Shown: piece by piece, positions 15,615 to 47,991 of the stretch
How the letters are laid out: each line of letters begins with the position of its first letter
Position numbering within the stretch: the stretch's first letter is position 1
Source of the DNA: Pseudomonas fulva 12-X
GTDB taxonomy: Bacteria; Pseudomonadota; Gammaproteobacteria; Pseudomonadales; Pseudomonadaceae
Assembly (NCBI RefSeq): GCF_000213805.1
Contig: NC_015556.1
Coordinates: 2,867,001-2,931,000, forward strand
DNA: 64,000 bases
Direction of reading: 5' to 3'
Translations under genes and position numbers: made by a program
The notes under the pieces: model-generated
The model's input: the letters and a program-made list of their open reading frames with translations, nothing else
Told to the model about the DNA's origin: nothing
The model's database searches: none

Positions 15615-15651
15615 GGCAATACACCATTACCACTTGCATTCGCGTAACGGG

Positions 15652-27106: not shown

Positions 27107-27261
27107 GGGGTGCCTCTAAAAACGTAGGCGAGGCAGGCAGCGCAAGGCCTAGGCGGCCCCGAAAAAACAGGCTAAAAAGCGGAGTTTACAGCTTGTAAAT
27201 GAGCATTTTTAGCCTGTTTTCAACGCTGCGATGACAACGCAGGTAGTTTTTAGAGGTGCCC
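27107..27261. mobile_element. 155 bp MITE-like element abutting the GST stop codon
   Basis: Ends are GGGGTGCCTCTAAAAAC and, read inward on the other strand, GGGCACCTCTAAAAAC. Flanking TCA (27104-27106 and 27262-27264) is duplicated; on the minus strand the right copy is the TGA stop of the GST gene. A large internal palindrome (ACAGGCTAAAAA...TTTTTAGCCTGT) and GTAAATGAGCA are shared with the element at 32761-32944. No coding capacity, so a non-autonomous element is inferred. Confidence 0.75.
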
Positions 27262-27885
27262 TCAGGTCAGGTCGGTCATTACCGCGCGCCGATAAGCCGG
27301 CCGCTCGCACAAGCGCGCGTACCAGGCCTGAAGGTTGGGCTGCAGCGGTCGCTCGATGGGCATTTCGAACCAGGCATAGATGAAGCTGCCCAGCGGGATA
27401 TCGCCCATGGCGAAGCGCTCGCCGGACAAGTAAGGCTGCTCGCCCAACGCTTTTTCGGGCAGCGCCAACAAGTCGATACAGCGTTGCCGGGCCGCTTCGA
27501 TCAGCGCTTCGTTACGCTGCTCGACCGGAGTACGCAAGGTGCCCCAGAACAGATCGCGAAACTCGCCGGCGAAGCTGGAAGTCGTCCAGTCCATCCACTT
27601 GTCGCCACACGCGCGGCTGGCAGGATCTTCAGGGTAAAGAGTGCCCGGCGCATAGGCTGCGGCCAGGTAACGCACGATGGCGTTGGATTCCCACAACACC
27701 AGATCGCCGTCTTCGATCATCGGCACGCGGCCGTTGGGATTGCGCGCTAGGTACTCGGGCTGGTCGACCACGCCGAAGGCGCCACCGGCCTCGAGCCGCT
27801 CGTAGGCGACACCGGCCTCTTCAGCGCACCAGAGTGCCTTGCGTACGTTACTGGAATTCTTGCGACCCCAAATTTTCAGCATCAT
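27262..27885 (-). CDS. glutathione S-transferase family protein
   Basis: A 207-residue GST. The thioredoxin-fold N-terminal domain (about 1-80) has the cis-Pro glutathione-binding region GRVPMIEDGDLVLWESNAIVRYL. The C-terminal helical domain includes ERFAMGDIPLGSFIYAWFEM. The likely catalytic residue is Ser11 or Ser12 (RKNSSNVRK). Two adjacent ATGs are possible starts. The stop codon coincides with the border of a MITE-like element. Detoxification or conjugation role; substrate unknown. Confidence 0.88.
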   Translation of the reverse strand: MMLKIWGRKNSSNVRKALWCAEEAGVAYERLEAGGAFGVVDQPEYLARNPNGRVPMIEDGDLVLWESNAIVRYLAAAYAPGTLYPEDPASRACGDKWMDWTTSSFAGEFRDLFWGTLRTPVEQRNEALIEAARQRCIDLLALPEKALGEQPYLSGERFAMGDIPLGSFIYAWFEMPIERPLQPNLQAWYARLCERPAYRRAVMTDLT

Positions 27886-28214
27886 CCATCGTCCTTATCA
27901 GAGTCCTGCCTACCAAGAGGCTGACAACCCTACCATTGTGCCGCCAAGAAGGAAGGCGGCAGCAATAATGTTGGCTATCGACCGGGTTCATAACGCAGGA
28001 AGTCGGCACCGTTGGGCACCTGACCAACAGGTCATCCGCGCAGACAATTTGTTATCCGAACTCGCCTGCCTGGCGCGGGGTCACTATCGGAACGTGACCG
28101 GCCGCATTCGTGCAAGAAGCGCCCTGTTACGCCCCTGTCGGCAGCTTCTACCCAAGCCGACTACGATTATGGCGGCGCTTGCCGTTCTGCTGTCGCCATC
28201 ACGGAGGATTCTGC
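27886..28214. other. intergenic region upstream of fadE
   Basis: 329 bp between divergent GST and fadE. GGAGG at 28203-28207 is the fadE ribosome binding site. No PsrA-type box, hairpin or small gene was recognised. Confidence 0.4.
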
Positions 28215-30662
28215 ATGCTCGCTGTCTGGTTGCTCGTCCTGGTTCTCGGTACGGCCTATCTGGCCCACCGCCGCACGGCTCCCCTGCCCGCCCTGGCCAT
28301 CGTTGCCGCCTACCTGCTGATCATGGGCGCCTATAGTCATGCCCCTGGCTGGCTGATGGTGATCTTCTGGCTGCTGTGGTTGGCCGTCGCCCTTCCACTG
28401 GCGCTGCCGGAACTGCGCCGCAAGCACTTCACCAAGCCGCTGTTTGCCTGGTTCCAGAAGGTGCTGCCGCCGATGTCCAAGACCGAGAAGGATGCCATCG
28501 AAGCCGGCACCGTCTGGTGGGACGGCGAGCTGTTCAGCGGCCGCCCCGACTGGGACAAGCTGCTGGCTTACCCGAAAGCCAGGCTGACCGAAGAAGAGCA
28601 GGCCTTTATCGACGGACCGACCGAAGAGCTGTGCGCCATGGTCAGCGAGTGGCAGATCGGCCAGCGCATGGACTTGCCGCCCGAAGCCTGGGACCACATC
28701 AAGCGGCACGGCTTCTTCGCCCTGATCATCCCCAAGGAGTACGGCGGCAAGGGCTTTTCGGCCTATGCCCATTCCCAGGTGGCGATGAAGCTGGCGACTC
28801 GCAGCGGCGACCTGGCGTCCACCGTAATGGTGCCCAACTCCCTGGGCCCGGCCGAGTTGCTGCTGCATTACGGCACCGAAGAACAGCGCAACCATTACCT
28901 GCCCCGTCTGGCGCGCGGCGAAGACATCCCCTGCTTCGCCCTGACCGGCCCGCTGGCCGGCTCCGACGCCGGCGCCATGCCCGACAGCGGAGTGATCTGC
29001 AAAGGCCAGTGGAACGGTGAGGAGGTCATTGGCCTGCGCCTGAACTGGGAAAAGCGCTACATCACCCTCGGCCCGGTAGCGACCCTGCTGGGCGTGGCCT
29101 TCAAGGCCTACGACCCGGAGCACCTGCTCGGCGACAAGGAAGAACTGGGCATCAGCCTGGCGCTGATCCCGACCGACACCCCCGGCGTGAACATCGGCCG
29201 CCGCCATGTGCCGCTAGGGGCGGCCTTCATGAACGGCCCGAACTCCGGCAAGGACGTGTTCATTCCACTCGATTACCTGATCGGCGGGCCGGACTACCTC
29301 GGCAAGGGCTGGATGATGCTGATGAACTGCCTGTCGGTCGGCCGCTCGATCTCCCTGCCGGCGGTCGGCACCGGCGCCGCCAAGTTCACCAGTCTGGTCA
29401 CCGGCCAGTACAGCCAGGTACGCGAGCAGTTCAACGTGCCACTGTCGGCCTTCGAGGGCATTCAGGAAGCCCTGGCGCGCATCGGCGGCAATGCCTGGCT
29501 GATGGACAGCGCACGCATCCTCACCGCCAATGCAGTCGACTTGGGCGAGAAGCCGTCGGTTTTGTCGGCCATCCTCAAGTATCACCTCACCGAGCGTGGT
29601 CGCGAATGCATCACCCACGCCATGGACGTGCACGGCGGCAAGGGCATCATCATGGGCCCAAGCAACTACCTGGGTCGTTCCTGGCAAGGCGCGCCGATCT
29701 TCATCACCGTCGAGGGCGCTAACATCCTCTCGCGCAACCTGATGATCTTCGGCCAGGGCGCCATCCGCTGCCATCCCTACGTGCTCAAGGAAATGGCCCT
29801 GGCCGGCCGCGAGGACCGCGACCAGGCATTGCTGGAGTTCGATGATCTGCTGATGCAGCACATCGGTTTTGCAGTCAGCAATGCCGCCAGCACACTGATC
29901 CTGAGCCTCAGCCTGGGCCTGCTCGGCAAGGTGCCGGGTGACCGTATCAGCCGCCCCTACTTCCGCGCCCTCAATCGCCTGAGCGCGGCCTTCGCCATGC
30001 TCGCCGACCTGAGCATGATGCTCTTGGGCGGCGAGCTGAAGCGCCGCGAGCGCCTGTCGGCGCGCCTGGGCGACGTGCTCAGCCATCTGTATCTGGCCTC
30101 GGCGGCGCTCAAGCGTTATCACGATCAGGATTACCCGGAGCACGTGCGACCGTTGCTGCACTGGGCATTGGAAGAGAGCCTGGGCAAGGCCGAAAGCGCA
30201 ATTGACGCGCTGCTCAGCAACTTCCCCAACCGCCTGCTGGGAAGCGCTCTGCGCGTGCTGGTCTTCCCGTTCGGTCGTCGTCATCAGGGCCCGGACGATC
30301 AGCTCGACGCTCAGGTCGCGGCGATCATCGGCCGCCATGCTGGCGACCCGGCACTGGAAGCCGTGCTCGAAGGCTGCTTCCGCCCCACCTCTACCGAAGA
30401 TCCGGTCGGCGCTCTGCAACACGCCTTCAACCTGCTGCAGGAAACCGCGCCGCTGCAGAAGAAGCTGCACAAGGCCGTCAAGGCTGGCCAGGTGCGTGAA
30501 ACGCCCGGGCAGAACGAGATCGAGACGGCGGTCGCCGCCGGCGTGCTCAGCGCCGAGGAAGGCCAACAGCTGCAGCGCGCCGAACAGGCACGCCGGGTGG
30601 TGATCGACGTCGACGACTTCAGCAAGGAGGAGCTGCTGCCCAGCGACGGCAAGGTGCGGTAA
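28215..30662 (+). CDS. fadE: FadE-type long-chain acyl-CoA dehydrogenase
   Basis: An 815-residue protein of the E. coli FadE type (814 residues), catalysing the first step of fatty acid beta-oxidation. Two or three N-terminal transmembrane segments (about 1-70) anchor it to the inner membrane. The FAD/acyl-CoA dehydrogenase core follows (PKEYGGKGFSAYAHSQVAMK, CFALTGPLAGSDAGAMPDSG, ITHAMDVHGGKGIIMGPSNY), then a long helical C-terminal domain of DUF1974 type. The ATG at 28215 has GGAGG eight bases upstream. Electrons pass to EtfAB/ETF-QO, encoded near the right end of the window. Confidence 0.93.
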   Translation: MLAVWLLVLVLGTAYLAHRRTAPLPALAIVAAYLLIMGAYSHAPGWLMVIFWLLWLAVALPLALPELRRKHFTKPLFAWFQKVLPPMSKTEKDAIEAGTVWWDGELFSGRPDWDKLLAYPKARLTEEEQAFIDGPTEELCAMVSEWQIGQRMDLPPEAWDHIKRHGFFALIIPKEYGGKGFSAYAHSQVAMKLATRSGDLASTVMVPNSLGPAELLLHYGTEEQRNHYLPRLARGEDIPCFALTGPLAGSDAGAMPDSGVICKGQWNGEEVIGLRLNWEKRYITLGPVATLLGVAFKAYDPEHLLGDKEELGISLALIPTDTPGVNIGRRHVPLGAAFMNGPNSGKDVFIPLDYLIGGPDYLGKGWMMLMNCLSVGRSISLPAVGTGAAKFTSLVTGQYSQVREQFNVPLSAFEGIQEALARIGGNAWLMDSARILTANAVDLGEKPSVLSAILKYHLTERGRECITHAMDVHGGKGIIMGPSNYLGRSWQGAPIFITVEGANILSRNLMIFGQGAIRCHPYVLKEMALAGREDRDQALLEFDDLLMQHIGFAVSNAASTLILSLSLGLLGKVPGDRISRPYFRALNRLSAAFAMLADLSMMLLGGELKRRERLSARLGDVLSHLYLASAALKRYHDQDYPEHVRPLLHWALEESLGKAESAIDALLSNFPNRLLGSALRVLVFPFGRRHQGPDDQLDAQVAAIIGRHAGDPALEAVLEGCFRPTSTEDPVGALQHAFNLLQETAPLQKKLHKAVKAGQVRETPGQNEIETAVAAGVLSAEEGQQLQRAEQARRVVIDVDDFSKEELLPSDGKVR

Positions 30663-30737
30663 TCGCAAGGCAGAGACGACAGCGGGCGCCATGGACCTTA
30701 TACTCCGGCGCCCGTTTTACTTTCAGGAACACCGGAC

Positions 30738-31148
30738 ATGGCCAATCCCCATCTCGACCATCACATCGTCCTGCTCAACCATCTGCGCACCATCCTGGTC
30801 GCCCTGGGTGAAGCCGAGCAGATTCTCGATGCCAGCCATGCCAACTTTCTCGAGCGCTACGACGAGTTGCTCGCCGAGCTGCCAGTGGACTTCGAACGCA
30901 GCCAGTACCTGGGCCAGGAGCTGATCAGCCAGATCTTCCAGCGCTACCCGCAGATCGCCCACCTGGTACCGCGCGACCTGCTGTGGTTCTTCGGGGGCGA
31001 TTGCCTGCACTTCATGCCGGACGAGGAAATCGAGCTGTACCAGCAGCTCGACGAGCGCCGCTTCTACGCCGGAAAGAACGACGAGCCGTTCGACTGGAAT
31101 CAGGAAAAGCAACTCTTGGCCATGCCTGCGCCGAGCAGCCGCCACTGA
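30738..31148 (+). CDS. conserved hypothetical protein (PA2817-like)
   Basis: A 136-residue acidic cytoplasmic protein with no signal or membrane segment. It is conserved after fadE in Pseudomonas (PA2817 family, from memory). Distinctive segments are HIVLLNHLRTILVALGEAEQ and DLLWFFGGDCLHFMPDEEI. It starts 75 bp after fadE and is followed by a strong terminator, so it is probably cotranscribed with fadE. No known domain was recognised. Confidence 0.75.
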   Translation: MANPHLDHHIVLLNHLRTILVALGEAEQILDASHANFLERYDELLAELPVDFERSQYLGQELISQIFQRYPQIAHLVPRDLLWFFGGDCLHFMPDEEIELYQQLDERRFYAGKNDEPFDWNQEKQLLAMPAPSSRH

Positions 31149-31150
31149 CG

Positions 31151-31189
31151 AAAAAGCCCGCCAGCATCAAAGATGCTGGCGGGCTTTTT
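31151..31189 (+). terminator. intrinsic terminator of the fadE operon
   Basis: A-run, perfect 13 bp stem GCCCGCCAGCATC / GATGCTGGCGGGC (31156-31168/31172-31184), then TTTTT. Bidirectional in form. Confidence 0.92.
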
Positions 31190-31210
31190 CCAAGCGCCGA
31201 AACGCAGATA

Positions 31211-31242
31211 CGAAAACGCCGCTCAATCGAGCGGCGTTTTCG
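31211..31242 (-). terminator. terminator of the tRNA cluster
   Basis: CGAAAACGCCGCTC pairs perfectly with GAGCGGCGTTTTCG around a 4-base loop, just beyond the last tRNA on the minus strand, with T-rich arms. Confidence 0.85.
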
Positions 31243-31248
31243 TTTATT

Positions 31249-31324
<76 letters not shown>

Positions 31325-31337
31325 ATTTACAACAAAT

Positions 31338-31413
31338 TGGCGTCCCCTAGGGGACTCGAACCCCTGTTACCGCCGTGAAAGGGCGGTGTCCTAGGCCACT
31401 AGACGAAGGGGAC
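31338..31413 (-). tRNA. tRNA-Glu (TTC), copy 1
   Basis: 76 bases with encoded CCA. Acceptor GTCCCCT pairs with AGGGGAC, anticodon stem-loop CCGCCCTTTCACGGCGG (TTC), T-arm AGGGGTTCGAGTCCCCT. Gene body identical to the copy at 31565-31640. Confidence 0.96.
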
Positions 31414-31459
31414 CTGGAACTTCTTATTGCAATCCGGCTGCCACACCGAACCTGAAATC

Positions 31460-31535
<76 letters not shown>

Positions 31536-31564
31536 AATCTTTGCTGCTCCACTTCTTCTGGAAG

Positions 31565-31640
31565 TGGCGTCCCCTAGGGGACTCGAACCCCTGTTACCGC
31601 CGTGAAAGGGCGGTGTCCTAGGCCACTAGACGAAGGGGAC
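31565..31640 (-). tRNA. tRNA-Glu (TTC), copy 2
   Basis: Same 76-base sequence as the tRNA-Glu at 31338-31413. First gene of the four-tRNA transcript; a strong promoter lies just upstream. Confidence 0.96.
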
Positions 31641-31701
31641 ATTGCCCGGAATTTCCGGCTTCCCCGCTGTGCTTTTCAGCATTACCGTGGAAGTGGCGCG
31701 C

Positions 31702-31730
31702 ATTCTATGGAGCCTTTCAACACTCGTCAA
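31702..31730 (-). promoter_or_regulatory. sigma70 promoter of the Glu-Gly tRNA cluster
   Basis: On the minus strand TTGACG-N17-TAGAAT is followed by a GC-rich discriminator (GCGCGCC). An AT tract at 31737-31758 upstream of the -35 could act as an UP element. All are hallmarks of a strong, stringently controlled stable RNA promoter. Confidence 0.75.
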
Positions 31731-31956
31731 CAGCTCATATAAAAATTTTTAAAATCAACGACTTCAATCTGATTCCAGGACCATCGAAAGCGTGCCGGGC
31801 GCGCATGCCTGCTTTAATGCGACAAGCGAAACGCGCAGGCGGCGTGCAAACCGCGCAATGATGGCAGAACGCGAGTAAGATGGCTGATATCGACAGGCAG
31901 CCACCACCTCGCGGGTCGCTGCGCCCCGCCCCGACAGCTTTGAAGAGGTTAAGACG
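31731..31956. other. intergenic region with AT-rich tract
   Basis: Between the tRNA promoter and the membrane coiled-coil gene on the plus strand. It holds the AT-rich upstream element of the tRNA promoter. Nothing else was recognised apart from the presumed promoter of the rightward gene. Confidence 0.4.
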
Positions 31957-32724
31957 ATGTCCTCGCTCGTTATCACCATGGCGATAATCGGCGGTATCAC
32001 GCTGTTGGTGCTGCTGGCCTACCTGAATCAGCTGGCCGAGAACAACAAACGCAAGAAAGCGCGCCTGAAGGCCGACCTGGCCGAACGTTACCGGCGCATC
32101 GCCGACCTCAACGAACAGTTCGTCGGCCAGTTCATGAGCCCCGAACTGAAACTGCTGCTGTGCCGCCTGCAGCTGCAGTTCGCCGAACGCATTCTGGAAG
32201 TAGACAAACAGGACACGGTTTACGCGACCATGGCCGAAGAACTGCGCAAGCTGATCGCCATGGGCCCGGACATCCCGGTTCGCAACGCCCCCTACGCCGT
32301 CACAGACGATGCCAAGGCCACTCAGGTTCGCGCCCAGCTGGAGGCACTGCATGGCCAGATCGGCAAACTGGCCCAGAGCGGACAGCTGCCGGCTGATGAA
32401 GCCAAGAAGTGGGCCAAGGACATTCGCCACATGCTCGTGCAGCTGTACATCGATCTGTACGGCAACCAGGCCAAGCAGGCACTGCAGCAGCAACAGAACG
32501 GGCACGCCCGCCTGGCCCTGGAGCGTGGCGTGCAGTTCCTGCAAAAGCAACCCGACACCGCCCGCTACCAGGCGACTTTGGCGCAGTTCCAGAAGCAGCT
32601 GGAGCGGGTCAATGCAATGCTGGTCAGCTCCCAGGCGCCCAGCGGCGAGGCCAATAGCGAGCTGACCGAAGGCCTCAAGTCGATGGAAGACGACGGCTGG
32701 AAGAAAAAGGCGCTGTACGACTAA
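31957..32724 (+). CDS. membrane-anchored coiled-coil protein, function unknown
   Basis: A 255-residue protein. One N-terminal transmembrane helix (about 4-26, VITMAIIGGITLLVLLAYLN) is followed by a largely helical, charged cytoplasmic part (KKARLKADLAERYRRIADLN; LYGNQAKQALQQQQNGHARL). It looks like a scaffold rather than an enzyme; no catalytic motif seen. It is conserved in Pseudomonas near sagS, as far as I recall. Its 3' end faces the MITE-like element and the fRMsr gene. Confidence 0.72.
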   Translation: MSSLVITMAIIGGITLLVLLAYLNQLAENNKRKKARLKADLAERYRRIADLNEQFVGQFMSPELKLLLCRLQLQFAERILEVDKQDTVYATMAEELRKLIAMGPDIPVRNAPYAVTDDAKATQVRAQLEALHGQIGKLAQSGQLPADEAKKWAKDIRHMLVQLYIDLYGNQAKQALQQQQNGHARLALERGVQFLQKQPDTARYQATLAQFQKQLERVNAMLVSSQAPSGEANSELTEGLKSMEDDGWKKKALYD

Positions 32725-32760
32725 GAGGCCTGCGCCTCCCAGACCTCACATCTCTTTTAA

Positions 32761-32944
32761 GAGCCTTTTCAAAGCCTCGCGAGCTAGAGCAATGCAAGGC
32801 ATAGGCGACCCCGTAAAAACAGGCGAGGACCGGTCGGAGTCGCGCTCGACTTTACGAGCTGTAAATGAGCAGTCCGACTGGGCTGGCAATCCAGCCTGTT
32901 TTTAACGCCGCAGTGCCGACGCGCAGCAGACTTTGAACAGGTTC
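32761..32944. mobile_element. 184 bp MITE-like element abutting the fRMsr stop codon
   Basis: Terminal inverted repeats GAGCCTTTTCAAAG and, read inward from the right, GAACCTGTTCAAAG. The flanking TAA is duplicated (32758-32760 and 32945-32947). The minus-strand stop codon TAG of the fRMsr gene is made of TA from the duplication plus the first G of the element. Internal ACCCCGTAAAAACAGGC and GTAAATGAGCA are shared with the element at 27107-27261. No coding capacity. Confidence 0.75.
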
Positions 32945-33426
32945 TAACAATCACTTGCGCGCAGCAGCACAGCGGCCAGTGCTTCGATACCGCGCTGATC
33001 CACTTCGCTGAAGCGCCCGGTTCGCGGGCTGTCCAGATCCAGCACGCCGATCAGCCGGCCCTCCTTGATCAACGGCACCACCAGCTCACTGTTGGATGCG
33101 CTGTCGCAGGCGATATGACCGGGGAAAGCGTGCACATCCTCGACCCGCTGAGTTTGCCGCGACGCCGCCGCGGCGCCACACACGCCGCGCCCGAAAGCGA
33201 TACGCACGCAGGCTACCTTGCCCTGGAACGGGCCGAGCACCAGCTCATCGTCCTTTACCAGGTAGAAGCCGGCCCAGTTCAGGCCCTCCAGTTCGTGATA
33301 GATGAAGGCGCTGAACTGCGCGGCGTTGGCGATGAAATCCCGCTCACCAGACAGCAGCGCTTCCAGTTGGGCGGTCATCAGGGCGTAACCGTCCAGACCG
33401 GAACCGGTCTGACTCAAATCGATCAT
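32944..33426 (-). CDS. msrC: free methionine-(R)-sulfoxide reductase (GAF domain)
   Basis: A 160-residue single GAF-domain enzyme that reduces free methionine-R-sulfoxide. The three family cysteines are Cys73 (GKVACVRI), Cys83 (GRGVCGAAA) and Cys107 (PGHIACDSAS), with the same spacing as in the E. coli enzyme. The ATG at 33426 overlaps the stop of the upstream ATPase gene (ATGA), so they are coupled. Its stop codon is partly supplied by the adjacent MITE-like element. Confidence 0.92.
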   Translation of the reverse strand: MIDLSQTGSGLDGYALMTAQLEALLSGERDFIANAAQFSAFIYHELEGLNWAGFYLVKDDELVLGPFQGKVACVRIAFGRGVCGAAAASRQTQRVEDVHAFPGHIACDSASNSELVVPLIKEGRLIGVLDLDSPRTGRFSEVDQRGIEALAAVLLRASDC

Positions 33427-34313
33427 TGCAAAGTCTCCAGTAACTGCAGCCCGACCCATTGGCGGGCAAACTGATAGGCGCAGCGGCCATTGCGGTTGCC
33501 GCGCCCGGTAGCCCAGCGCACGGCAAGTTTTTCCAGCTCCTCGCTCCACTGCCACTGCAGGCCGGCCTGCGCCGCCTGGACCTCGACCCAGTGACGCACC
33601 ACATCCAGGTAATGCTCCTGGGTGAAGGGATAGAAGGACAGCCACAGGCCGAAGCGGTCCGACAGGGCGATCTTGTCCTCGACAGCCTCGTTCGGGTGCA
33701 GTTCGCCGTCGACCATCTGGGTGTTGGCGTTATCGCTCTCGCGCTCCGGCACCAGGTGACGACGGTTGGACGTGGCATACAGCAGCACGTTCTCCGGCGA
33801 CCGCTCCAGCGAGCCGTCGAGCACGCTCTTGAGCACCCGGTAATCACCCTCGCCGGCCTCGAACGACAGATCATCACAGAACAGAATGAAACGCTGCGGC
33901 AGCGTCATCAGTTGCTCGACCACCCGCGGCAAATCGGCCAGGTGATCACGCTCGATCTCGATCAGCCGCAGCCCGGCGTCGGCATGCTCGGCCAACAGCG
34001 CGCGCACCAGCGATGACTTGCCGGTGCCGCGCGCGCCCCACAGCAGCGCGTGGTTGGCCGGCATGCCCTGCACGAATTGCCGGGTATTACGGGCCAGCTG
34101 TTCGCGCTGGGTATCGACGCCGATCAGGTCGGACAGATTCATGTCCAGGCTGACCTTGAGCGCCTGCAGATAGCCTGAACGGCCCTCGCGCTGCCAGCGC
34201 GCGGCCAGGGTTTGGCTCCAGTCCAGCGGTTCACGCTCGGCCGGCAATAACGGCTCCAGACGCGTCAGCACGCTCTCGGCGCGCTGCAGAAAATCGGTAA
34301 TACGGGAATCCAC
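33423..34313 (-). CDS. DUF815 family AAA ATPase
   Basis: A 296-residue P-loop protein. Walker A is LWGARGTGKSSL, Walker B is FILFCDDLSFE, and ATSNRRHLVPE resembles a sensor region. DUF815 members are MoxR/DnaA-like AAA proteins of unknown role. The GTG at 34313 has GAGGAG eight bases upstream and was chosen over a longer frame. Coupled to msrC; divergent from the SagS-like kinase gene. Confidence 0.85.
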   Translation of the reverse strand: MDSRITDFLQRAESVLTRLEPLLPAEREPLDWSQTLAARWQREGRSGYLQALKVSLDMNLSDLIGVDTQREQLARNTRQFVQGMPANHALLWGARGTGKSSLVRALLAEHADAGLRLIEIERDHLADLPRVVEQLMTLPQRFILFCDDLSFEAGEGDYRVLKSVLDGSLERSPENVLLYATSNRRHLVPERESDNANTQMVDGELHPNEAVEDKIALSDRFGLWLSFYPFTQEHYLDVVRHWVEVQAAQAGLQWQWSEELEKLAVRWATGRGNRNGRCAYQFARQWVGLQLLETLQ

Positions 34314-34414
34314 GTAGCAGCTCCTCGGGAATTTCAGTCTGTGCGGCAGGTGTGCCGAAAAGCAGGCCAGATCGACTATGCTTGGGCAGCGATCGGAACG
34401 AGACAGCGCCCCAT

Positions 34415-36724
<2,310 letters not shown>

Positions 36725-36740
36725 ACGGCGGGGCCACCGA

Positions 36741-37185
36741 CTAATCGGAGAGCTGCCCGGCGATGCGCCGTAGCAGCACGTCCAGTTGCGCGCGCAATGG
36801 CTCCAGCTGATCGCTGTCGACACCCTGCTCGCAAAGCAGCTGGCGCTTGAGAGCCGGTACGCGGTTGCGTAGTTCACGGCCCTCTTTGCTGAGGCACAGG
36901 TGCATCTTGCGTTCATCCGCATCGCTGCGCCGCCGCTTCACCAGCCCGGCCGCCTGCAGACGCTTGAGCAGTGGCGTCAGGGTGCCCGAGTCGAGCAGCA
37001 GGCGCTCACCGAGAGCCTTGACCGTCGGCTGTGACGGCGCCAACTCATCCCATTCCCAGAGCACCAGCATCACCAGGTACTGCGGATAGGTCAGCTGCAG
37101 CGCATCGAGCATCGGCTTGTAGGCCCGCACCACCTGACGGGACGCGGCGTACAGCTTGAAGCACAGCTGCCGGTCGAGTTTCAAC

Positions 37186-37193
<8 letters not shown>
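36741..37193 (-). CDS. ospR: MarR/OhrR-type redox regulator, OspR-like
   Basis: A 150-residue MarR-family winged-helix repressor. The N-terminal RQLCFKLYAASRQV places Cys11 at the peroxide-sensing position of OhrR/OspR. The DNA-binding wing reads LLDSGTLTPLLKRLQAAGLV and RRRSDADERKMHL. Other cysteines (about 105 and 125) could form the second redox partner. Its start overlaps the gpx stop by 8 bp, so it is translated from the gpx mRNA. Oxidation should release it from the operator upstream of gpx. Confidence 0.87.
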
Positions 37194-37674
<481 letters not shown>

Positions 37675-37743: not shown

Positions 37744-37746
37744 ATC

Positions 37747-37776
37747 AAAAATAAGGCCCGTCATAAGCGGGCCTGA
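37747..37776 (-). terminator. intrinsic terminator of msrB
   Basis: On the minus strand AGGCCCG-N7-CGGGCCT is followed by TATTTTTG, 20 bp after the msrB stop. It separates msrB from the gpx-ospR promoter. Confidence 0.8.
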
Positions 37777-37793
37777 TTACTGACATACAGCAC

Positions 37794-38192: not shown

Positions 38193-38339
38193 AGGCCGTC
38201 CTCCTCGGGATAAAAAAGCCCTATCTGTATCTTTGCCCGACTCAGGCTGACACGTATGATTCGACACCTCAACCCGCCACGGCGCGCAGCCGCCTCGGCC
38301 CATTGCAGGCCGCCCTTCTTCGATTCGGGATTCTTCACC

Positions 38340-39551: not shown

Positions 39552-39610
39552 CCCGGCTGCGCGGATGCCCGCCCGGGCGTCCGCTGCCCTCGCCGCCAGA
39601 GCACGAGCCC

Positions 39611-40054
39611 ATGGACCTGCAGATAGACGACTTCTACAAGGACGCCGCCAGCGGTTTGCTGATGCTCTACCAGGCCTTTCCGCGCAAAGCCTCGCTGTAC
39701 GTGGAAGACCTGATCGGCCGTGAGGAGCCCGATGAATTCGGCCTGCCGAGCAAACGCCACCAGGCCTGCCTGGGCGCCCTGCTGTGGCTCGCCGACGAGG
39801 GCTACCTGCGCTACGAATCCACCATCGGTTACGACGCGCTGGATCAGGCGGTGCTGACCGAAAAGGGCTTTCTGCGTCTGTCGCGCGGCATTCCCCGGGC
39901 GATCAGCGAGGGCGAGGCCCTGCCGCCGGCGGTGGATCGGGTGCAGGCGACCCTGGCCTTTCAACTACGCGAAGCGCTCGCCCAGCAACATGGTGAACGG
40001 ATTGCGCGCCTCACCCGCCAACTGTTCGAACAACGCCCTGCTGCCCCTTACTGA
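39611..40054 (+). CDS. conserved hypothetical protein (PA2829-like)
   Basis: A 147-residue soluble protein. It looks like a small winged-helix-type domain ([23 protein letters not shown], then [11 protein letters not shown]), which might bind DNA or protein, though no family name is recognised. It starts 59 bp after alaA on the same strand and is conserved between the aminotransferase and htpX genes in Pseudomonas, from memory. Confidence 0.7.
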
Positions 40055-40194
40055 CTGCGCTCGGCGCAGCGAAAGCAGCGGTTTTTCTTGGCCCCGATTG
40101 AAATAAACGCGAAAAAGCTAATCTAAGCTTTGCCGCCCGTGCGAGGCCGCTTGCAGCCGCCGAGCCAGGCGACACAGTTTGAAATAGTGACTCG

Positions 40195-40225
40195 GTTGAA
40201 TCGCTACAGGGCGCGCCCTTATATA
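40195..40225 (+). promoter_or_regulatory. candidate sigma32 heat-shock promoter of htpX
   Basis: GTTGAAT-N14-CCCTTATAT resembles the RpoH consensus CTTGAAA-N11-15-CCCCATNT and ends 47 bp before the htpX start. htpX is a classic heat-shock gene, so motif and context agree. Confidence 0.6.
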
Positions 40226-40271
40226 GCCGCCGTATCGAGCCTGTCTTTCCCTTGAGGAGTTGTTTCACACC

Positions 40272-41144
40272 ATGATGCGCATTATGTTGTTCCTGGCTAC
40301 CAACTTGGCGGTACTGGTTATCGCCAGCATCACCCTCAAACTGCTGGGGGTTGATCGCTTCACCGGCCAGAACCACGGCAGCCTGCTGATCTTCTGCGCC
40401 GTCTTTGGTTTTGCCGGCTCGCTGGTCTCGCTCTTCCTGTCCAAGTGGATGGCGAAGATGAGCACCGGTACCGAAATCATCACCCAGCCGCGCACCCGCC
40501 ACGAGCAGTGGCTGCTGCAGACCGTCGAAGAGCTGTCGCGCGACGCCGGCATCAAGATGCCGGAAGTGGGTATCTTCCCCGCTTACGAATCCAACGCCTT
40601 CGCCACCGGCTGGAACAAGAACGACGCGCTGGTCGCCGTCAGCCAGGGCCTGCTGGAGCGCTTCTCGCCTGATGAGGTGAAAGCCGTACTGGCCCACGAG
40701 ATCGGCCACGTGGCCAATGGCGACATGGTGACGCTTGCGCTGATCCAGGGCGTGGTGAACACCTTCGTGATGTTCTTCGCACGTATCTTCGGTAACTTCG
40801 TCGACAAGGCGATCCTGAAGAACGAAGACGGCCATGGTATCGGCTACTTCGTGGCGACCATCTTCGCCGAGCTGGTACTGGGTATCCTGGCCAGCATCAT
40901 CGTCATGTGGTTCTCGCGCAAACGCGAGTACAAGGCCGACGAAGCCGGCGCACGGCTGGCGGGCAAAGGCGCGATGATCGCCGCGCTGCAGCGCCTGCGT
41001 GCCGAACAGGGCGTACCGGTGCAGATGCCCGACAGCCTGACCGCCTTCGGCATCAACGGCGGCCTTAAGAACGGCCTGGCGGGCCTGCTGATGACTCACC
41101 CGCCGCTGGAAGAGCGTATCGAAGCCCTGCGCCGTCTGGGCTGA
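40272..41144 (+). CDS. htpX: membrane protease HtpX
   Basis: A 290-residue M48 zinc metalloprotease of the inner membrane involved in quality control of membrane proteins. It has two N-terminal transmembrane helices, the zinc motif HEIGH (in [13 protein letters not shown]) with the third ligand Glu in [15 protein letters not shown], and two further hydrophobic segments between. The start MMRIMLFL matches the family; a TTG 12 bases earlier is too close to the GAGGAG site. A sigma32-like promoter precedes it and a terminator follows. Confidence 0.95.
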
Positions 41145-41156
41145 TCGAAACGCAAA

Positions 41157-41185
41157 GAAAAGGCGACCCGAGGGTCGCCTTTTTC
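41157..41185 (+). terminator. intrinsic terminator of htpX
   Basis: AGGCGACCC (41161-41169) pairs with GGGTCGCCT (41172-41180), preceded by an A-run and followed by TTTTC. Confidence 0.9.
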
Positions 41186-41204
41186 ATGTCCGCGATTCGC
41201 CTCA

Positions 41205-41354
41205 GAGCCTGTTCACGATCTTTACGCGCATGAAGCGGCAACTACAAAGCAAAAGCGAGCATCGGCGCTCCCACAATGGATCTGCGAAGGGCCGCTTAGC
41301 GCCACTTAGCAGCCAGAATCGACGAATCTGGACTGAAAGATTATGAACAGGTTC
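41205..41354. mobile_element. 150 bp MITE-like element abutting the tpm stop codon
   Basis: Terminal inverted repeats GAGCCTGTTCACGATCTTT and, read inward from the right, GAACCTGTTCATAATCTTT. The flanking TCA is duplicated (41202-41204 and 41355-41357); on the minus strand the right copy is the TGA stop of tpm. Termini are the same family as the element at 32761-32944. No coding capacity. Confidence 0.78.
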
Positions 41355-42005
41355 TCAGAGCAGGCGCAGGTGGTAGGCCCGCTCATCCATGCGCGTCAGG
41401 CCACGGGCCCTGAAACGATCTTCCAGGGCATCCTGGCTTTCCAGCAACTCGCTTTCCCAGATAGTGCCGTTCCAACTGCGCACCTCGGCGTCGCTCACCG
41501 AGAATGGCGGCCCATCCATCAGCGCCTGGTCGTAATCCAGGGTGACCAGCAGGCCATGGCTTTCCGGCAGCAGGATCTGCTGCAGGTGGCGCACATAGCG
41601 CTCGCGCATCTCGGCCGGCAACGCAATCAGTGCAGCACGGTCGTAGAACAGCGCGCAGCCCGGCATATGGCGGGCCTCGAAGGCGAAGAAGTCGCCGCAG
41701 AACAACTCGACTCGGCCGTGGCGATACACCTTGAAGGCATCCTCCTGGGTGATCACCGGCTCGACGCCCTGTTCGGCGAAAAACGCCGCCACCGCCACCT
41801 CGGCCAGCTCCACACCCACCACACGATGCCCCTGCGCCGCCAGCCAGGCCAGGTCCAGGCTTTTGCCGCACAACGGCACCAGCACGGCGGCGTCGCTCGA
41901 ACCGGCGACCGTCGTCCAGTGCCGCTGCAGCTGGCCATTGACCTGGCGGGCATGAAAGCCGATCTGGTTGGAATGCCAGCGTTGTAGCCAGAATGATTCC
42001 TGCAT
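41355..42005 (-). CDS. tpm: thiopurine S-methyltransferase
   Basis: A 216-residue SAM methyltransferase. The family N-terminus MQESFWLQRWHSNQIGFH and the segment VLVPLCGKSLDLAWLAAQGH are typical of bacterial TPMT, which in Pseudomonas methylates selenite, tellurite and thiol compounds. The start at 42005 is family-like; an upstream in-frame ATG adds 7 residues. Convergent with htpX; its stop codon forms the border of a MITE-like element. Confidence 0.93.
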   Translation of the reverse strand: MQESFWLQRWHSNQIGFHARQVNGQLQRHWTTVAGSSDAAVLVPLCGKSLDLAWLAAQGHRVVGVELAEVAVAAFFAEQGVEPVITQEDAFKVYRHGRVELFCGDFFAFEARHMPGCALFYDRAALIALPAEMRERYVRHLQQILLPESHGLLVTLDYDQALMDGPPFSVSDAEVRSWNGTIWESELLESQDALEDRFRARGLTRMDERAYHLRLL

Positions 42006-42110
42006 GTTTTGCTCCCAAGCCATCAAGAAAACAGATAATACCGAGCAGACTTTAGCCGTTGTTAGGCCAACTTGGCTGATGGATCATGAATGCATTATCA
42101 GGAGAACACC

Positions 42111-42878
42111 ATGCAACCCAGCCTGTTCATTTCCCACGGCTCACCCATGCTCGCCCTGCAACCCGGCGCCAGCGGTCCTGCCCTGGCGCGCATCGCCGCC
42201 AAGCTGCAAAGGCCGGACGCCATCCTGGTGGTCTCGGCACATTGGGAAAGCGAGGCGTTGCGAGTGATGAGCAACACACAGCCGCAAACCTGGCACGACT
42301 TCGGTGGTTTTCCGGCCGAGCTCTATCAGGTGCAGTACCCGGCGCCCGGCAACCCGCAGCTGGCCGCAGACATCGTACAGCGCCTGCAGGCCGCCGGCCT
42401 CGCCGCGACCACCGATGATCGCCGCCCGTTCGATCATGGCAGCTGGGTGCCGCTATCGCTGCTCTACCCCGACGCCGACATCCCGGTGGTGCAGGTCTCC
42501 CTACCCAGCCGCCAGGGCCCGGGCCTGCAGGTACGAATAGGTGAAGCATTGGCCGGGCTGCGCGAGCAGAACGTACTGCTGATCGGCTCGGGCAGCATCA
42601 CCCATAATCTGGGCGAGCTGAACTGGCGCTCCACCGGCGACGAAGCCGCGCCCTGGGCACTGGAGTTTCGCGACTGGATGGTCGAGCGACTGCAGGAGGA
42701 CGACCTGACTGCGCTGCTCGACTACCGCCGCCAGGCCCCGCACGCACAGCGCAATCATCCCAGTGACGAGCACTTGCTACCGCTGTTCTTCGCTCGTGGG
42801 GCCGGTAATGCCTTCGCCATCGAGCACCAGGGCTTTACTCTCGGCGCCCTGGGCATGGACATCTACCGCTTCGACTGA
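42111..42878 (+). CDS. LigB-type class III extradiol dioxygenase family protein
   Basis: A 255-residue DODA/YgiD-type enzyme. Metal ligands are expected in FISHGSPM, VVSAHWES and PFDHGSWVPL; a C-terminal histidine is in GSGSITHNLG. Bacterial members open catechol-type rings (4,5-DOPA dioxygenase activity in YgiD), though the natural substrate is usually unknown. The ATG at 42111 follows GGAGA. Convergent with pabB and overlapping it by 16 bp at the 3' ends. Confidence 0.9.
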   Translation: MQPSLFISHGSPMLALQPGASGPALARIAAKLQRPDAILVVSAHWESEALRVMSNTQPQTWHDFGGFPAELYQVQYPAPGNPQLAADIVQRLQAAGLAATTDDRRPFDHGSWVPLSLLYPDADIPVVQVSLPSRQGPGLQVRIGEALAGLREQNVLLIGSGSITHNLGELNWRSTGDEAAPWALEFRDWMVERLQEDDLTALLDYRRQAPHAQRNHPSDEHLLPLFFARGAGNAFAIEHQGFTLGALGMDIYRFD

Positions 42879-44236
42879 AAGGAGCATTCCAAGGTGCTGA
42901 GCAGCACCTGCACCTTGGTGATCGACTCCTGATACTCGGCCTGCCAGGCCGAGTCGGCGACTATACCGCCACCGCCCCAGCAACTGATCACCCCGTCCTT
43001 GGCCAGCAGGCTGCGGATGGCGATGGAACTGTCCATCTCGCCACGCACGTCCAGATAAAGCAGCGACCCGCAGTAAGGGCCGCGACGTGTCGGTTCGAGC
43101 TCGTCGATGATCTGCATGGCGCGGATCTTCGGTGCACCGGTGATCGAGCCTCCGGGAAAAGCGCCCAGCAGCAAATCCAGCGCATCCTTGTCGGCCGCCA
43201 ACTCCCCGGTCACCGCACTGACCAGGTGGTGCACGTTCGGGTAACTCTCTAGGGCGAACAGTTCGGGCACCCGCACCGAGCCGATGCGGCAGCTGCGCCC
43301 CAGATCGTTACGCAACAGATCGACGATCATCAGGTTCTCGGCACGGTCCTTGGTGCTGGTGAGCAGCACCTGGGCGTTGCGCGCATCTTCCTGCTCGTCA
43401 CGCCCACGCGGCTGGGTGCCCTTGATAGGCCGCGTCTCCACCTGCCCGCCACTGACGCGGATAAAGCGCTCGGGGGACAGGCTCAGCAAGGCACCGCCAC
43501 CAGGCAGTGTCAGGTAACCGGAAAACGGCGTCGGGCACGCACCGCGCAACATCCCATAGGCCTGCCAGGGATCGCCCTCATAGCGCGCCTGGAAGCGCTG
43601 GGCGTAGTTGACCTGGTAGCAATCCCCGGAGGCGATATAGGCCTGGATTCGGCCGATGGCTTCGGCATAACGCGCCTCTTCGACATCGGCCTTGAACGGC
43701 GCCAGCAAGGCGAACGGCGTCTGCCCTTCATAGTCTTTCGCGGGATGCTCGAACAGCGTCTGCAGGCGTGCCCGCTCGCCTCCCGGCAAGGCAGGATGGA
43801 ACACCAGTTGGCTGGTCTGCGCTTGGTGATCGGTAATCAATGCCCAGGCGTACAGGCCGAAAACCGCGTCGCCAAACCCCAGGTCGTGCCGAGCCTGCTC
43901 AGGCAACGCTTCGATACGGCGGCCGAAATCGTAGGACAGGTAACCCAGCAAGCCGCCGGCAAACGGCAGCTCGACGCCGGCGGGCAGATCCGCAGGCCCG
44001 AGTGCAGTGAGCTGTTCACGCAGGCGCGCAAAGAATGCGGCGCCCGACTCATCGTGCGCCGGCGTCAGCTCGGCCAGCGGCCAGGCACTGAGCAGGTCAT
44101 AACGCCCACGGCTTGCCGCTGGCCTGCCGGCATCCAGCAACACCGCCCCAGGCGCCTGGCGCACCACCTGAAAATACACGGCAGGATCGGCTTGATACGG
44201 CAGGCGGTGAACGAGACAGATAGGCATTCGGGGCAT
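42863..44236 (-). CDS. pabB: aminodeoxychorismate synthase component I
   Basis: A 457-residue chorismate-binding enzyme. With the amidotransferase PabA it makes 4-amino-4-deoxychorismate for folate. The C-terminal catalytic domain shows PFSGYLTLPGGGALLSLSPE, RPIKGTQPRG, KDRAENLMIVDLLRNDLG and GGSITGAPKIRAMQIIDELE. The lysine-containing motif PIKGT is typical of PabB, whereas anthranilate synthase has PIAGT. Two nearby ATGs (44236 and 44227) are possible starts, and neither has a strong ribosome binding site. Confidence 0.9.
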   Translation of the reverse strand: MPRMPICLVHRLPYQADPAVYFQVVRQAPGAVLLDAGRPAASRGRYDLLSAWPLAELTPAHDESGAAFFARLREQLTALGPADLPAGVELPFAGGLLGYLSYDFGRRIEALPEQARHDLGFGDAVFGLYAWALITDHQAQTSQLVFHPALPGGERARLQTLFEHPAKDYEGQTPFALLAPFKADVEEARYAEAIGRIQAYIASGDCYQVNYAQRFQARYEGDPWQAYGMLRGACPTPFSGYLTLPGGGALLSLSPERFIRVSGGQVETRPIKGTQPRGRDEQEDARNAQVLLTSTKDRAENLMIVDLLRNDLGRSCRIGSVRVPELFALESYPNVHHLVSAVTGELAADKDALDLLLGAFPGGSITGAPKIRAMQIIDELEPTRRGPYCGSLLYLDVRGEMDSSIAIRSLLAKDGVISCWGGGGIVADSAWQAEYQESITKVQVLLSTLECSFQSKR

Positions 44237-44321
44237 CACGAAAACGAGGACGGCCGATTGTAGAGCCGCCGGCAGGATCGTCCTAGGGCCGACACGCGAC
44301 GGTTCAGGTTCCAGAAACGAC

Positions 44322-44346
44322 TCGGGGGAGCCATTGGCTCCCCCGA
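44322..44346 (-). terminator. intrinsic terminator-like hairpin after deaD
   Basis: TCGGGGGAGCC-ATT-GGCTCCCCCGA is a perfect 11 bp stem beginning 19 bp after the deaD stop on the minus strand. The following T-run is short (GTCGTTTCT). Confidence 0.7.
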
Positions 44347-44365
44347 ATCGGTGTTGCATTGAGGA

Positions 44366-46039
<1,674 letters not shown>

Positions 46040-46267
46040 GGGTCTGCCTCTCGTGCATCCGCAAAGACCCATGTTCCAAAGCTGCACATGCCATGTAGGA
46101 CCTTGTGGGTCACCCTGGCAGCAATGTAGGCGGGGATTTGCGAAAACGTGGTGAAAAATGAATCGTCAAGATAGCCCGCTTGGCGGACTGGCTGCCGGAA
46201 AGCTTCCGGGCGATTTGCACTACTTGAACGTGGCCATGAATTGGCCGGCGCGTACTATACCGGAATT

Positions 46268-46296
46268 CATATAGACGTGTGCGCTTTTTCACACAA
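46268..46296 (-). promoter_or_regulatory. candidate sigma70 promoter of deaD
   Basis: On the minus strand TTGTGT-N17-TATATG lies about 230 bp upstream of the deaD start. A second TATA-like box (TATAGT) follows at 46254-46259. The long leader of about 220 bases that would result could hold regulatory RNA structure. Confidence 0.35.
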
Positions 46297-46367
46297 TAAA
46301 TAGGCCAAAAGCCGGCGGCGGCCATATCGCGACGCTATGTCGCAGCCGCCCGCCCCTGGTCGGTCGC

Positions 46368-46766
46368 TCAGGCTCTGCTGGCCAGCTGCGCCTCGATCGC
46401 CGCCTTGTCGACCACCGACCAGACTTCGGCGATCTTGTCGTCACGAAAGGCGTAGAACACGTTTTCGCTGAAGGCCACCTTTCGGCCATGGACCGGCACA
46501 TCGAGAAAGCGGCCCTTCGGGGTGCAGTGAAAATCCAACCGGCAGGCGATCATCGATTCTTCGCAGGTCAGCAGGCGAATGTTGAACTGCAGATCGGGAA
46601 TTTCCTGGTAATCACGCTCGAGCATCTCGCGATAGCCGCTCAAGCCAAGGCGCCGACCGTTATGCACCACATCGTCGTGAACGAACTGCCCCAGGTTGGC
46701 CCAGTCCTGCCGGTTGAGGCAGTCGAGATAGGCGCGATACACCGAAGGTAGATCTTGATCGGTCAT
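46368..46766 (-). CDS. NTF2-like/SnoaL-type fold protein (ester cyclase family)
   Basis: A 132-residue cone-shaped NTF2-like protein. The N-terminal helices SVYRAYLDCLNRQDWANLGQ precede a beta sheet (VHNGRRLGLSGYREMLERDY, ACRLDFHCTPKG, KVAFSENVFYAFRDDKIAEV) typical of SnoaL/ester cyclase relatives. Small-molecule binding or isomerase activity is possible; substrate unknown. Monocistronic as far as seen, upstream of deaD on the same strand. Confidence 0.8.
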   Translation of the reverse strand: MTDQDLPSVYRAYLDCLNRQDWANLGQFVHDDVVHNGRRLGLSGYREMLERDYQEIPDLQFNIRLLTCEESMIACRLDFHCTPKGRFLDVPVHGRKVAFSENVFYAFRDDKIAEVWSVVDKAAIEAQLASRA

Positions 46767-46886
46767 GACAGGGCTCCGTCGCAGTGGTCTTGAGGATTCG
46801 CAGGCTCAGGGGGTGCGCAGAGTCTGCGAGGCTCTAAAAGGACAGCGTCGGGGGCGGTTAATTCCTGGCGGGGCTGAAGCGACTTA

Positions 46887-47155
46887 GGGTCTGTTGCCGT
46901 TTCACGCCACGCCGGAGCCCGTTTTGCCGCGAGGCAAGGCACGAGCCGCGAAGCGGGCTAAATGAGCCGGCGAGAAACGCAGCATCGCGTCAAACCGGGC
47001 CCGGCCCATCGGGCTGCGCGAGAAATCTCGCCATGCGTTGTTGGAGGACTTGAAAAGGGAACGCCATTCCCTGCGTCCTCCGCCTAGCGGATCGCCGCCC
47101 GGCCTGGCGAGATTTCTCGCGGCAACGCGGCTCGCGTTGAAACGGCAACAGACCC
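46887..47155. mobile_element. 269 bp MITE-like element within the former stop codon of the next gene
   Basis: Perfect 18 bp terminal inverted repeats GGGTCTGTTGCCGTTTCA at both ends, flanked by TA on each side (46885-46886 and 47156-47157). An internal inverted pair (CGAGAAATCTCGCC / GGCGAGATTTCTCG) is present. No coding capacity; TA duplication and termini suggest mobilisation by a TA-targeting transposase elsewhere. The minus-strand stop TAG of the spermidine-synthase-like gene is TA plus the element's first G. Confidence 0.85.
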
Positions 47156-47991
47156 TAGGTCGCCATACGGACGGCATCGATCAATGGCTGCAGCGAATAG
47201 CCAAGCTGCGCCTGCAATGCCTTCGCGCGCTGGCTCACCGCCTCGCGGTCGAACTGCTGATCCAGATCGGCCGGCACCAGCACCACCACGTTGCCCTCCA
47301 CCACTGGGCATTCCCAGTAATGGCGGTGGTAGAGCCCTCGCAGCAGCGCAGCGCCCAGCGGTTTGCCGTCGTCGCCGGCCCACTGGTTGATGATCAGCCA
47401 GCCGCCGGGGTTAAGCTTGGCCCGGCAGTCGTCGAGAAAGCGCCAGGCCAGGTGGCCGACACCGGGGCCGGTGTCGGTGTAAAGGTCGACGAAGATCAGA
47501 TCCGCGGTTTCCGCGGTGGGCAGCAACTGCATGGCATCGCCGATGCGCACGGTCAGGCGCTCATCGTCTTCCAGCCCCAGATACTCCATGGCCAGGCGCG
47601 GCACGTCAGGGCGCAGCTCGATGGTCTCGACATCGTCCAGCGGCAGAAAACGCAGACAGGCCTGGGTCAGGGTGCCGGCGCCCAGGCCGAGGAACAGCGC
47701 GCTCTCCGGCGCCTCGTGGCACAGAGCGCCGACAAACATTGCGCGGGTGTAATCGTATTCCAGCCAGCTCGGGTCAGCGGTGAACACGCAGCTCTGTTCG
47801 ATCGCCTCGCCGAATTCGAGAAAGCGGTATTCACCGACCTCGACCACACGGATCACCCCGAAGGCGTCGCGCACCTCGGCCAGCACCACTTCGTCCTTCA
47901 TATCCTCCACCGGAGGCAAGCCAGGCATGCGCAGATTCTCCACCGTCGCGTTACCCGGCTGCCGCCGGGCTGGGCGCTGATTGTCGGCCAT
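47155..47991 (-). CDS. spermidine synthase-like protein
   Basis: A 278-residue Rossmann-fold protein of the spermidine/spermine synthase superfamily. Visible features are a SAM-binding-type loop LFLGLGAGTLTQACLRF, an acidic strand end ETIELRPDVPRLA and LIFVDLYTDTGPG. The polyamine-site signature GGGDG of true SpeE is replaced by LGAGT, so aminopropyl transfer is uncertain. An upstream GTG (48009) with GAGGGC would add six residues. Its stop codon is altered by the adjacent element (TAG in place of a likely TAA). Confidence 0.82.
   Translation of the reverse strand: MADNQRPARRQPGNATVENLRMPGLPPVEDMKDEVVLAEVRDAFGVIRVVEVGEYRFLEFGEAIEQSCVFTADPSWLEYDYTRAMFVGALCHEAPESALFLGLGAGTLTQACLRFLPLDDVETIELRPDVPRLAMEYLGLEDDERLTVRIGDAMQLLPTAETADLIFVDLYTDTGPGVGHLAWRFLDDCRAKLNPGGWLIINQWAGDDGKPLGAALLRGLYHRHYWECPVVEGNVVVLVPADLDQQFDREAVSQRAKALQAQLGYSLQPLIDAVRMAT

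Follow-up and report, generated by a model that had tools for sequence, protein, structure and literature searches.

A 64,000-nucleotide stretch of the genome of Pseudomonas fulva 12-X (contig NC_015556.1, positions 2,867,001 to 2,931,000; hereafter the window) carries four miniature inverted-repeat transposable elements (MITEs), each of which abuts a minus-strand gene at its stop codon and leaves the encoded protein unaltered. The same bias is evident among further copies of these elements in the source genome, a single contig of 4.92 Mb, and it recurs in related strains. We attribute it, with a probability of roughly 0.77, to the combined effects of targeting of a short palindrome, rebuilding of the stop codon upon insertion, and loss of harmful insertions, rather than to recognition of stop codons as such.

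The proposed mechanism is as follows. The elements would constitute four non-autonomous MITE families of the IS5 type (A, B, C and D) together with a related family, E, and would be moved in trans by an IS5 transposase. The transposases would choose short palindromes, these being CTNAG for the pooled B and C families (BC) with duplication of the TNA, CTAG for D with duplication of the TA, and YTAR for E with a 4 bp duplication. Within the insertion-tolerating DNA of this 64% GC genome such palindromes include a stop codon much more frequently than other positions, and an insertion would be silent wherever the duplicated triplet is itself the stop, or where a duplicated TA followed by the first G of the element makes TAG. 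Insertions within genes and on the promoter side would be lost.

Element 1 (A-type, 27108-27261, 154 bp, ends GGGTGCCTCTAAAAAC / GTTTTTAGAGGTGCCC) is flanked by a TCAG duplication at 27104-27107 and 27262-27265, the right copy of which contains the TGA stop (27264-27262, minus strand) of a glutathione S-transferase-like (GST) gene at 27262-27885. Element 2 (B-type, 32761-32944, 184 bp, GAGCCTTTTCAAAG ... CTTTGAACAGGTTC) lies between TAA copies at 32758-32760 and 32945-32947, and the right copy together with the terminal G of the element at 32944 forms the minus-strand TAG stop of a GAF-domain gene (32944-33426). Element 3 (C-type, 41205-41354, 150 bp, GAGCCTGTTCACGATCTTTA ... GATTATGAACAGGTTC) has TCA at 41202-41204 and at 41355-41357, the latter being the TGA stop, on the minus strand, of the thiopurine S-methyltransferase gene tpm (41355-42023). 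Element 4 (D-type, 46887-47155, 269 bp, GGGTCTGTTGCCGTTTCA ... TGAAACGGCAACAGACCC) is bordered by TA at 46885-46886 and 47156-47157, and here too the right copy and the adjoining element base (47155) supply a TAG stop, that of a minus-strand spermidine-synthase-like gene at 47155-48009. All four have inverted-repeat ends and, because they are only 150-269 bp long, they are too small to encode a transposase. These junctions were pointed out by a first-pass annotation of the window, and the placement of the elements at minus-strand stops (TGA at 27262, TAG at 32944, TGA at 41355 and TAG at 47155), the absence of any change to the proteins, and the origin of the G in both TAG stops (elements 2 and 4) as the element's own first base are all borne out. 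The borders and duplications it assigned to elements 2 to 4 (TAA, TCA and TA, plus strand) also stand, but element 1 is better placed at 27108-27261 with the 4 bp duplication TCAG in place of one of 3 bp. The 3 bp version is rejected in view of the orthologous copy in the related genome G001, which is flanked by CTGA on both sides, and of two further A-type copies with 4 bp duplications (TACA and TGTA). Protein matches agree with the annotated identities of the GST and tpm genes, whereas the gene it labelled fRMsr yields a GAF-domain match and the match of the spermidine-synthase-like product to spermine synthase is weak.

Searches of the source genome with elements 1 to 4 gave 46, 41, 44 and 20 matches respectively, partly overlapping, with 40 first-look candidates scored per element, so that the count of bounded copies, at least 81, is a minimum. 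Blocks of sequence were assembled around the copies (121 blocks, 476 kb including the window), end pairs with duplications were then sought within them, and genes were called with a home-made codon-usage caller trained on those same blocks. A copy was counted if it had two recognisable ends and a duplication that was identical or contained no more than one mismatch. Visual inspection eliminated nine candidate pairs as chance pairs or alternative borders, along with an alternative border at 4154112; one of the nine, at 857344, may be a genuine C-type copy. In addition, three manually placed A-type copies took the place of two automatically assigned entries. The B and C families were pooled because their outer ends are near-identical (common outer end GARCCTGTTC), and the 81 copies comprise 50 BC, 16 D, 12 E and 3 A. 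Dispersed copies, target duplications, inverted ends and empty sites together identify these elements as MITEs.

With the empty sites reconstructed, 34 of the 81 copies (23 BC, 5 D, 5 E and 1 A) have a duplication that overlaps a stop, 43 lie between genes and four within a called gene. Where a duplication is imperfect and either of its copies may count, these numbers become 36 at stops and two in genes. The at-stop counts do not respond to the gene-score cut-off, which was varied between 18 and 40, and with perfect duplications only there are 17 BC copies at stops and 16 between genes in this genome, and 14 and 5 in the relatives. We considered whether the larger share of perfect duplications among at-stop copies is a sign of youth, and dropped this idea because selection on the stop holds one of the duplicate copies in place. 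The survey thus reveals the strong excess at distance zero from a stop that the first-pass annotation had named as a check. Its argument that four of four exceeds chance is correct in that the bias is real, but at the genome-wide rate such a run has a probability of about 0.04, and the window is a slightly fortunate sample.

Across the genus, a typical 140 bp B element has matches in 61 of 79 genomes, the source genome included, and 89 loci from the matches listed were inspected, 60 of them hand-picked. After exclusion of three of the 38 BC pairs (L375, L385 and L390) as chance pairs inside genes, 34 loci contained a bounded BC copy and one of these contained two, giving 35 copies from nine genomes. 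Among these, 19 are at stops and 16 between genes; once two shared pairs of insertions and one copy also present in the source genome are allowed for, 17 of 32 independent copies are at stops. Plasmids also carry related sequences, a search with one B copy matching seven records at 76-79% identity, one of them over 81% of the query.

Insertion at a stop codon is silent in nearly every instance. All 54 at-stop insertions (34 in this genome and 20, including one E-type, in relatives) retain a stop at the same codon, with the same triplet in 48 and a different stop in six, and the protein equals the reconstructed version in 52, the two exceptions reflecting imperfect E-type duplications. The terminal base of the element is part of the stop in seven of the 54, five of which are D-type. 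The geometry of the target would account for this silence: TNA can overlap a stop only as the stop itself, or when TTA precedes an A or a G, in which case the G of the element would give TAG. The silent outcome itself was counted directly. An independent check comes from G001, which has empty sites in place of elements 2, 3 and 4 and whose orthologous genes terminate at or near the same codon. The stop triplets or their contexts in G001 differ, though, at the genes labelled fRMsr and tpm. G001 carries element 1 at the same stop, and its empty site is found in another relative, G027, where it reads CTGAG.

One stop is occupied by different families in different strains. The stop of the spermidine-synthase-like gene, which has a D-type element in the window, has a C-like element in P. 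straminea JCM 2783 (L438) and in strain PA15 (L440), located just after position 3352, its left end eroded and CAA bordering it on the right; the same stop is empty in G001, in strain G34 (L439) and in P. punonensis (L447). The simplest reading is that members of two families inserted independently at one stop, and replacement of one element by another could also have produced this arrangement. Elsewhere in the source genome (G000:C1:222070-222557) a D-type element has inserted where a C-type copy ends on the right (222289/222293), at a CTTAG that is also the stop codon of a neighbouring gene.

The flanks of the catalogued copies reveal what the hit sites have in common. BC copies are flanked by CTNAG with mostly TNA duplications, D copies by CTAG with TA duplications, and E copies by YTAR with 4 bp duplications. 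Among own-genome BC copies with perfect duplications, the core weights (symmetrical by construction) are the same or nearly so at stops and between genes: 0.74 versus 0.72 for the outer C/G and 0.92 in both for the T/A. In this genome 16 of 23 BC copies at stops and 16 of 25 between genes have the exact CTNAG; for the relatives the figures are 12 of 19 and 4 of 16 respectively. In an evenly spaced genome sample (20 x 15 kb) there are 36 CTNAG sites on 235 stops, far fewer than the 16 of 23 among hit stops (Fisher P = 8e-8), and it is therefore the motif rather than the stop codon that marks a site for insertion. The proposal in the first-pass annotation of site choice or selection for stops thus survives as choice of a short palindrome; targeting of stop codons as such fits less well.

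The extent to which the motif accounts for the bias was gauged against tolerated DNA, defined as the stops plus the intergenic DNA of the same 20 x 15 kb sample. Stop codons contribute 705 of its 58,498 bases, and they account for 36 of 211 tolerated CTNAG sites, 217 of 2,938 TNA sites, 16 of 126 CTAG sites and 36 of 470 YTAR sites. We also used a gap-conditional test, which asks for each gap holding a copy how often a stop would be picked. For 83 BC copies, of which 42 are at a stop, 9.7 are expected if positions are chosen uniformly, 26.1 if TNA is required, 31.0 under a position weight matrix (PWM) built from 21 intergenic BC copies, and 38.9 under a strict C-TNA-G model, which leaves no significant overall excess (P = 0.17). 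In gaps between convergent genes, 13 of 18 BC copies are at a stop versus 13.6 expected under the intergenic PWM, and thus there is no surplus; in divergent gaps none of nine is at a stop and none is expected. Cross-fitted PWMs agree for convergent gaps, with 9 versus 8.8 in this genome and 4 versus 3.7 in the relatives, the relatives' PWM having been built on five sites. For the own-genome BC copies with their own PWM, 23 are at stops versus 17.7 expected.

Several observations weigh against the motif being sufficient. When compared with the tolerated-site rates, 16 of 32 exact-CTNAG own BC copies are at stops versus 36 of 211 (P = 1e-4), as are 5 of 10 E copies (P = 7e-4) and 5 of 16 D copies (P = 0.06). 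A null drawn from the same neighbourhoods as the insertions places 87 of 271 CTNAG sites (32%) at stops and leaves an excess as well (P = 0.016); we judged it to be biased because it includes the insertion sites themselves, and used the evenly spaced sample instead. In tandem gaps 29 of 56 BC copies are at a stop versus 17.4 expected under the intergenic PWM (P = 3e-5), and an excess stays even under the strict C-TNA-G model (23.3 expected, P = 0.02). Over all gaps, cross-fitted PWMs predict 13.6 at-stop copies in this genome and 13.6 in the relatives, where 23 and 19 are seen. The absence of a convergent-gap surplus is limited to BC, because D and E keep a surplus: with their own PWMs, D has 5 at stops versus 2.6 expected (P = 0.04), including 2 of 3 in convergent gaps versus 0.5, and E has 5 of 10 versus 1.05 (P = 8e-4). 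If the tandem gaps are limited to the first 100, 60, 40 or 25 bp after the stop, the 29 copies seen compare with 19.8, 22.2, 23.9 and 25.0 expected, a shrinkage that is expected if motif choice acts together with loss of promoter-side insertions, although the surplus persists within 25 bp (P = 0.03). The missing promoter-side insertions have presumably been removed by selection, and part of the excess is left unexplained by the motif, so that some extra pull towards gene ends may also operate. The count of intact stops is, moreover, partly built in, because a stop that lies inside the duplicated bases stays with the gene. Two further points are that the nearest-copy identities of at-stop and intergenic BC copies show no clear difference (Mann-Whitney P = 0.14), and that we found no parent for the A, B, D and E families in a PF01609 search with four matches, of which one complete insertion sequence (IS) and one other stretch, where ends of this kind were not found, were inspected.

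The extra pull would be accommodated by a bolder proposal, one that we consider unlikely but worth stating, in which these elements follow a safe-haven strategy: the outer base of the element would complete CTNAG or CTAG and so rebuild any stop that it touches, in any frame and on either strand, with stop codons serving as a harmless niche to which some added attraction to 3′ ends draws the elements. A related explanation, which seems to us improbable, is that the insertion complex is truly targeted to 3′ ends, being drawn to sites where translation or transcription finishes in addition to the motif, for example to DNA exposed behind terminating ribosomes or RNA polymerase. The residual in tandem gaps (29 versus 17.4, and 29 versus 25.0 within 25 bp) and the D copies in convergent gaps (2 of 3 at stops versus 0.5 expected) are the observations that speak for it. 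A convergent gap, however, has two gene ends, and yet BC copies there number 13 versus 13.6 expected; the motif is present at 16 of 23 hit stops and at few stops overall (36 sites on 235); and the own BC copies that are most alike, and presumably young, occupy stops in 2 of 12 cases, or 3 of 13 with one copy reassigned by its other duplicate.

The ages of the copies bear on the part of the preferred account that involves selection. In a post hoc split, 2 of 12 BC copies that are very alike, and hence presumably young, are at stops versus 21 of 36 other BC copies (P = 0.02). A lower at-stop share among young copies is the direction predicted by purging of harmful insertions, and this test of age is weak.

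An insertion might instead be beneficial, with a long hairpin after the stop being retained as a stabiliser of the mRNA or as a terminator. Three folded elements (element 1, taken 4 bases short, one B copy, and element 3 on both strands) are indeed far more stable than shuffled sequences (z from -3.0 to -9.1), but strong folding is to be expected because the elements are built as inverted repeats. Element 1 is identical to its G001 counterpart at 140 of 154 aligned positions, compared with 60 of 73 aligned columns of the flank, although this comparison concerns one copy and a short stretch of flank. Intergenic copies of the same families are equally common, at-stop copies are no more alike to their nearest copy, and none of the evidence here requires a hairpin or mRNA benefit; this explanation is therefore one to which we give little weight.

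It is less plausible still that insertion is random and that selection alone leaves stops as the sole harmless landing place. Only 4 of 81 copies lie within called genes, or 2 of 81 when either duplicate may count, and selection against genic copies is therefore probably strong, but uniform positions yield 9.7 at-stop copies versus the 42 seen, convergent gaps alone give 5.9 versus 13, and the motif is also found at intergenic copies; in its full form this explanation is already refuted. We give almost no credence to an artefact of gene calling or border choice, since, despite the home-made gene caller, some imperfect duplications and the ten candidate pairs dropped by eye, the counts are stable at cut-offs from 18 to 40, the subset with perfect duplications keeps its at-stop share, and in G001 the orthologues of all four window genes terminate at or close to the same position.

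A candidate for the parent of the C-type MITEs is a full-length IS of 838 bp, the one found among the PF01609 matches inspected, at G000:C1:3414111-3414948 (L192 912-1749), which is flanked by a TAA duplication. It starts with GAACCTGTC and finishes with AAAAGATCGTAAACAGGTTC, ends that by eye resemble those of the C-type, and has a transposase gene in two overlapping frames encoding 90 and 182 amino acids. These open reading frames match PF13340, PF01609 and PF13586 (the DUF4096 and DDE domains of IS5 transposases), and the second of them scores above the NF033580 cut-off, the first below it. Such parentage is suggested by sequence resemblance.

The families are themselves related. A-type (27108-27261) and E-type elements (e.g. 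G000:C1:667570-667709) share nearly the whole body (query positions 12-145 of 155) and differ in the outermost ~10 bases, and their central hairpin is also present in B-type copies. It is as if one core had been furnished with several end sets and duplication lengths in A, B and E, the ends having been swapped.

A BLAST comparison of the window with the four elements and the 81 copies located one further copy only, a truncated B/C-type element at 10300 to approximately 10402 with left end TAACCTGCTCACGATCTGC, which the first-pass annotation does not list, which is not among the 81 counted, and for which this local comparison found no right end. It is immediately preceded by the TGA stop (10297-10299, plus strand) of a called gene at 9493-10299, and thus all four bounded copies in the window and the single remnant adjoin a stop codon. 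Three other segments (approximately 11-64, 14603-14663 and 15572-15745) match internal parts of C-type copies only and do not include the ends; they have in common a GTGGGAGCGGGCCATGCCCGCGA-like module, which we take to resemble the repetitive extragenic palindromic (REP) sequence of Pseudomonas. No RNA family was found at the elements in an Rfam search of 26900-47400 at the gathering threshold, which returned four tRNA genes only. These lie on the minus strand at 31252-31640, and their scores alternate (69.1, 60.7, 69.1 and 60.7 bits), which suggests tandem duplication of a tRNA pair. One window protein has its closest named match in P. straminea JCM 2783 at 96% identity, the nearest records possibly having been excluded from this search.

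The account favoured here, a palindromic target coupled with stop rebuilding and loss of harmful insertions, offers a quantitative and testable explanation of why small mobile repeats pile up exactly at gene ends. Other elements that target TNA, TA or YTAR should follow the same logic, which also predicts the harmless spread of such repeats through compact GC-rich genomes. A further consequence is that some stop codons in these Pseudomonas strains are supplied in part by a mobile element.

The IS1031 and IS427 groups of the IS5 family generate TNA and TA target duplications. The duplications of the BC and D families (mostly TNA, and TA) match this type, although the window elements are non-coding, unlike those insertion sequences; the 838 bp IS, with its IS5 transposase domains and TAA duplication, may belong to the same type. 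Plant MITEs of the Tourist/PIF-Harbinger type likewise have 3 bp TTA/TAA duplications and a CTTAG-like core target, and differ from the window elements in being eukaryotic. One report links PIF-Harbinger to the IS5 family (PMC12730594), and another describes an IS1031-like element with 3-nucleotide sites in Leifsonia (PMC2516522). MITEPsy1 of P. syringae pv. phaseolicola, which has 100 nucleotides and six copies and is listed as IS5 with a question mark, resembles family E in being a short Pseudomonas MITE that inserts after CTAG or YTAA with a 4-nucleotide duplication; it differs from the window elements in its terminal repeats and in that two of its six copies interrupt genes, and a stop bias goes unmentioned in the part of the article available (PMC3189936). 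R178, R200 and other intergenic repeats of P. fluorescens are likewise described as MITE-like, and again the available text mentions no stop bias (PMC2718517).

In the titles and the opening lines of abstracts of the literature searched, subscription papers excepted, a stop-codon bias of IS5-type MITEs is unreported. BOX repeats belong to what is presumably an unrelated family. In Streptococcus pneumoniae, 36 of the 58 genes that overlap a BOX carry it at their extreme 3′ end, where it encodes the stop, and the portion of that study available mentions neither a target motif as the explanation nor regeneration of the stop, unlike what we describe for the window elements (PMC3049150). An IS5-like MITE with such a target was thus already known in the genus, and as far as the available portions of these papers extend the nearest precedent for the use of stops is that of BOX (PMC3189936, PMC3049150). 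What appears to be new here, with no precedent in those parts of the searched literature that were accessible, is the repeatable occupancy of stop codons by some 40-55% of the copies of a mobile element, with the stop rebuilt upon insertion.

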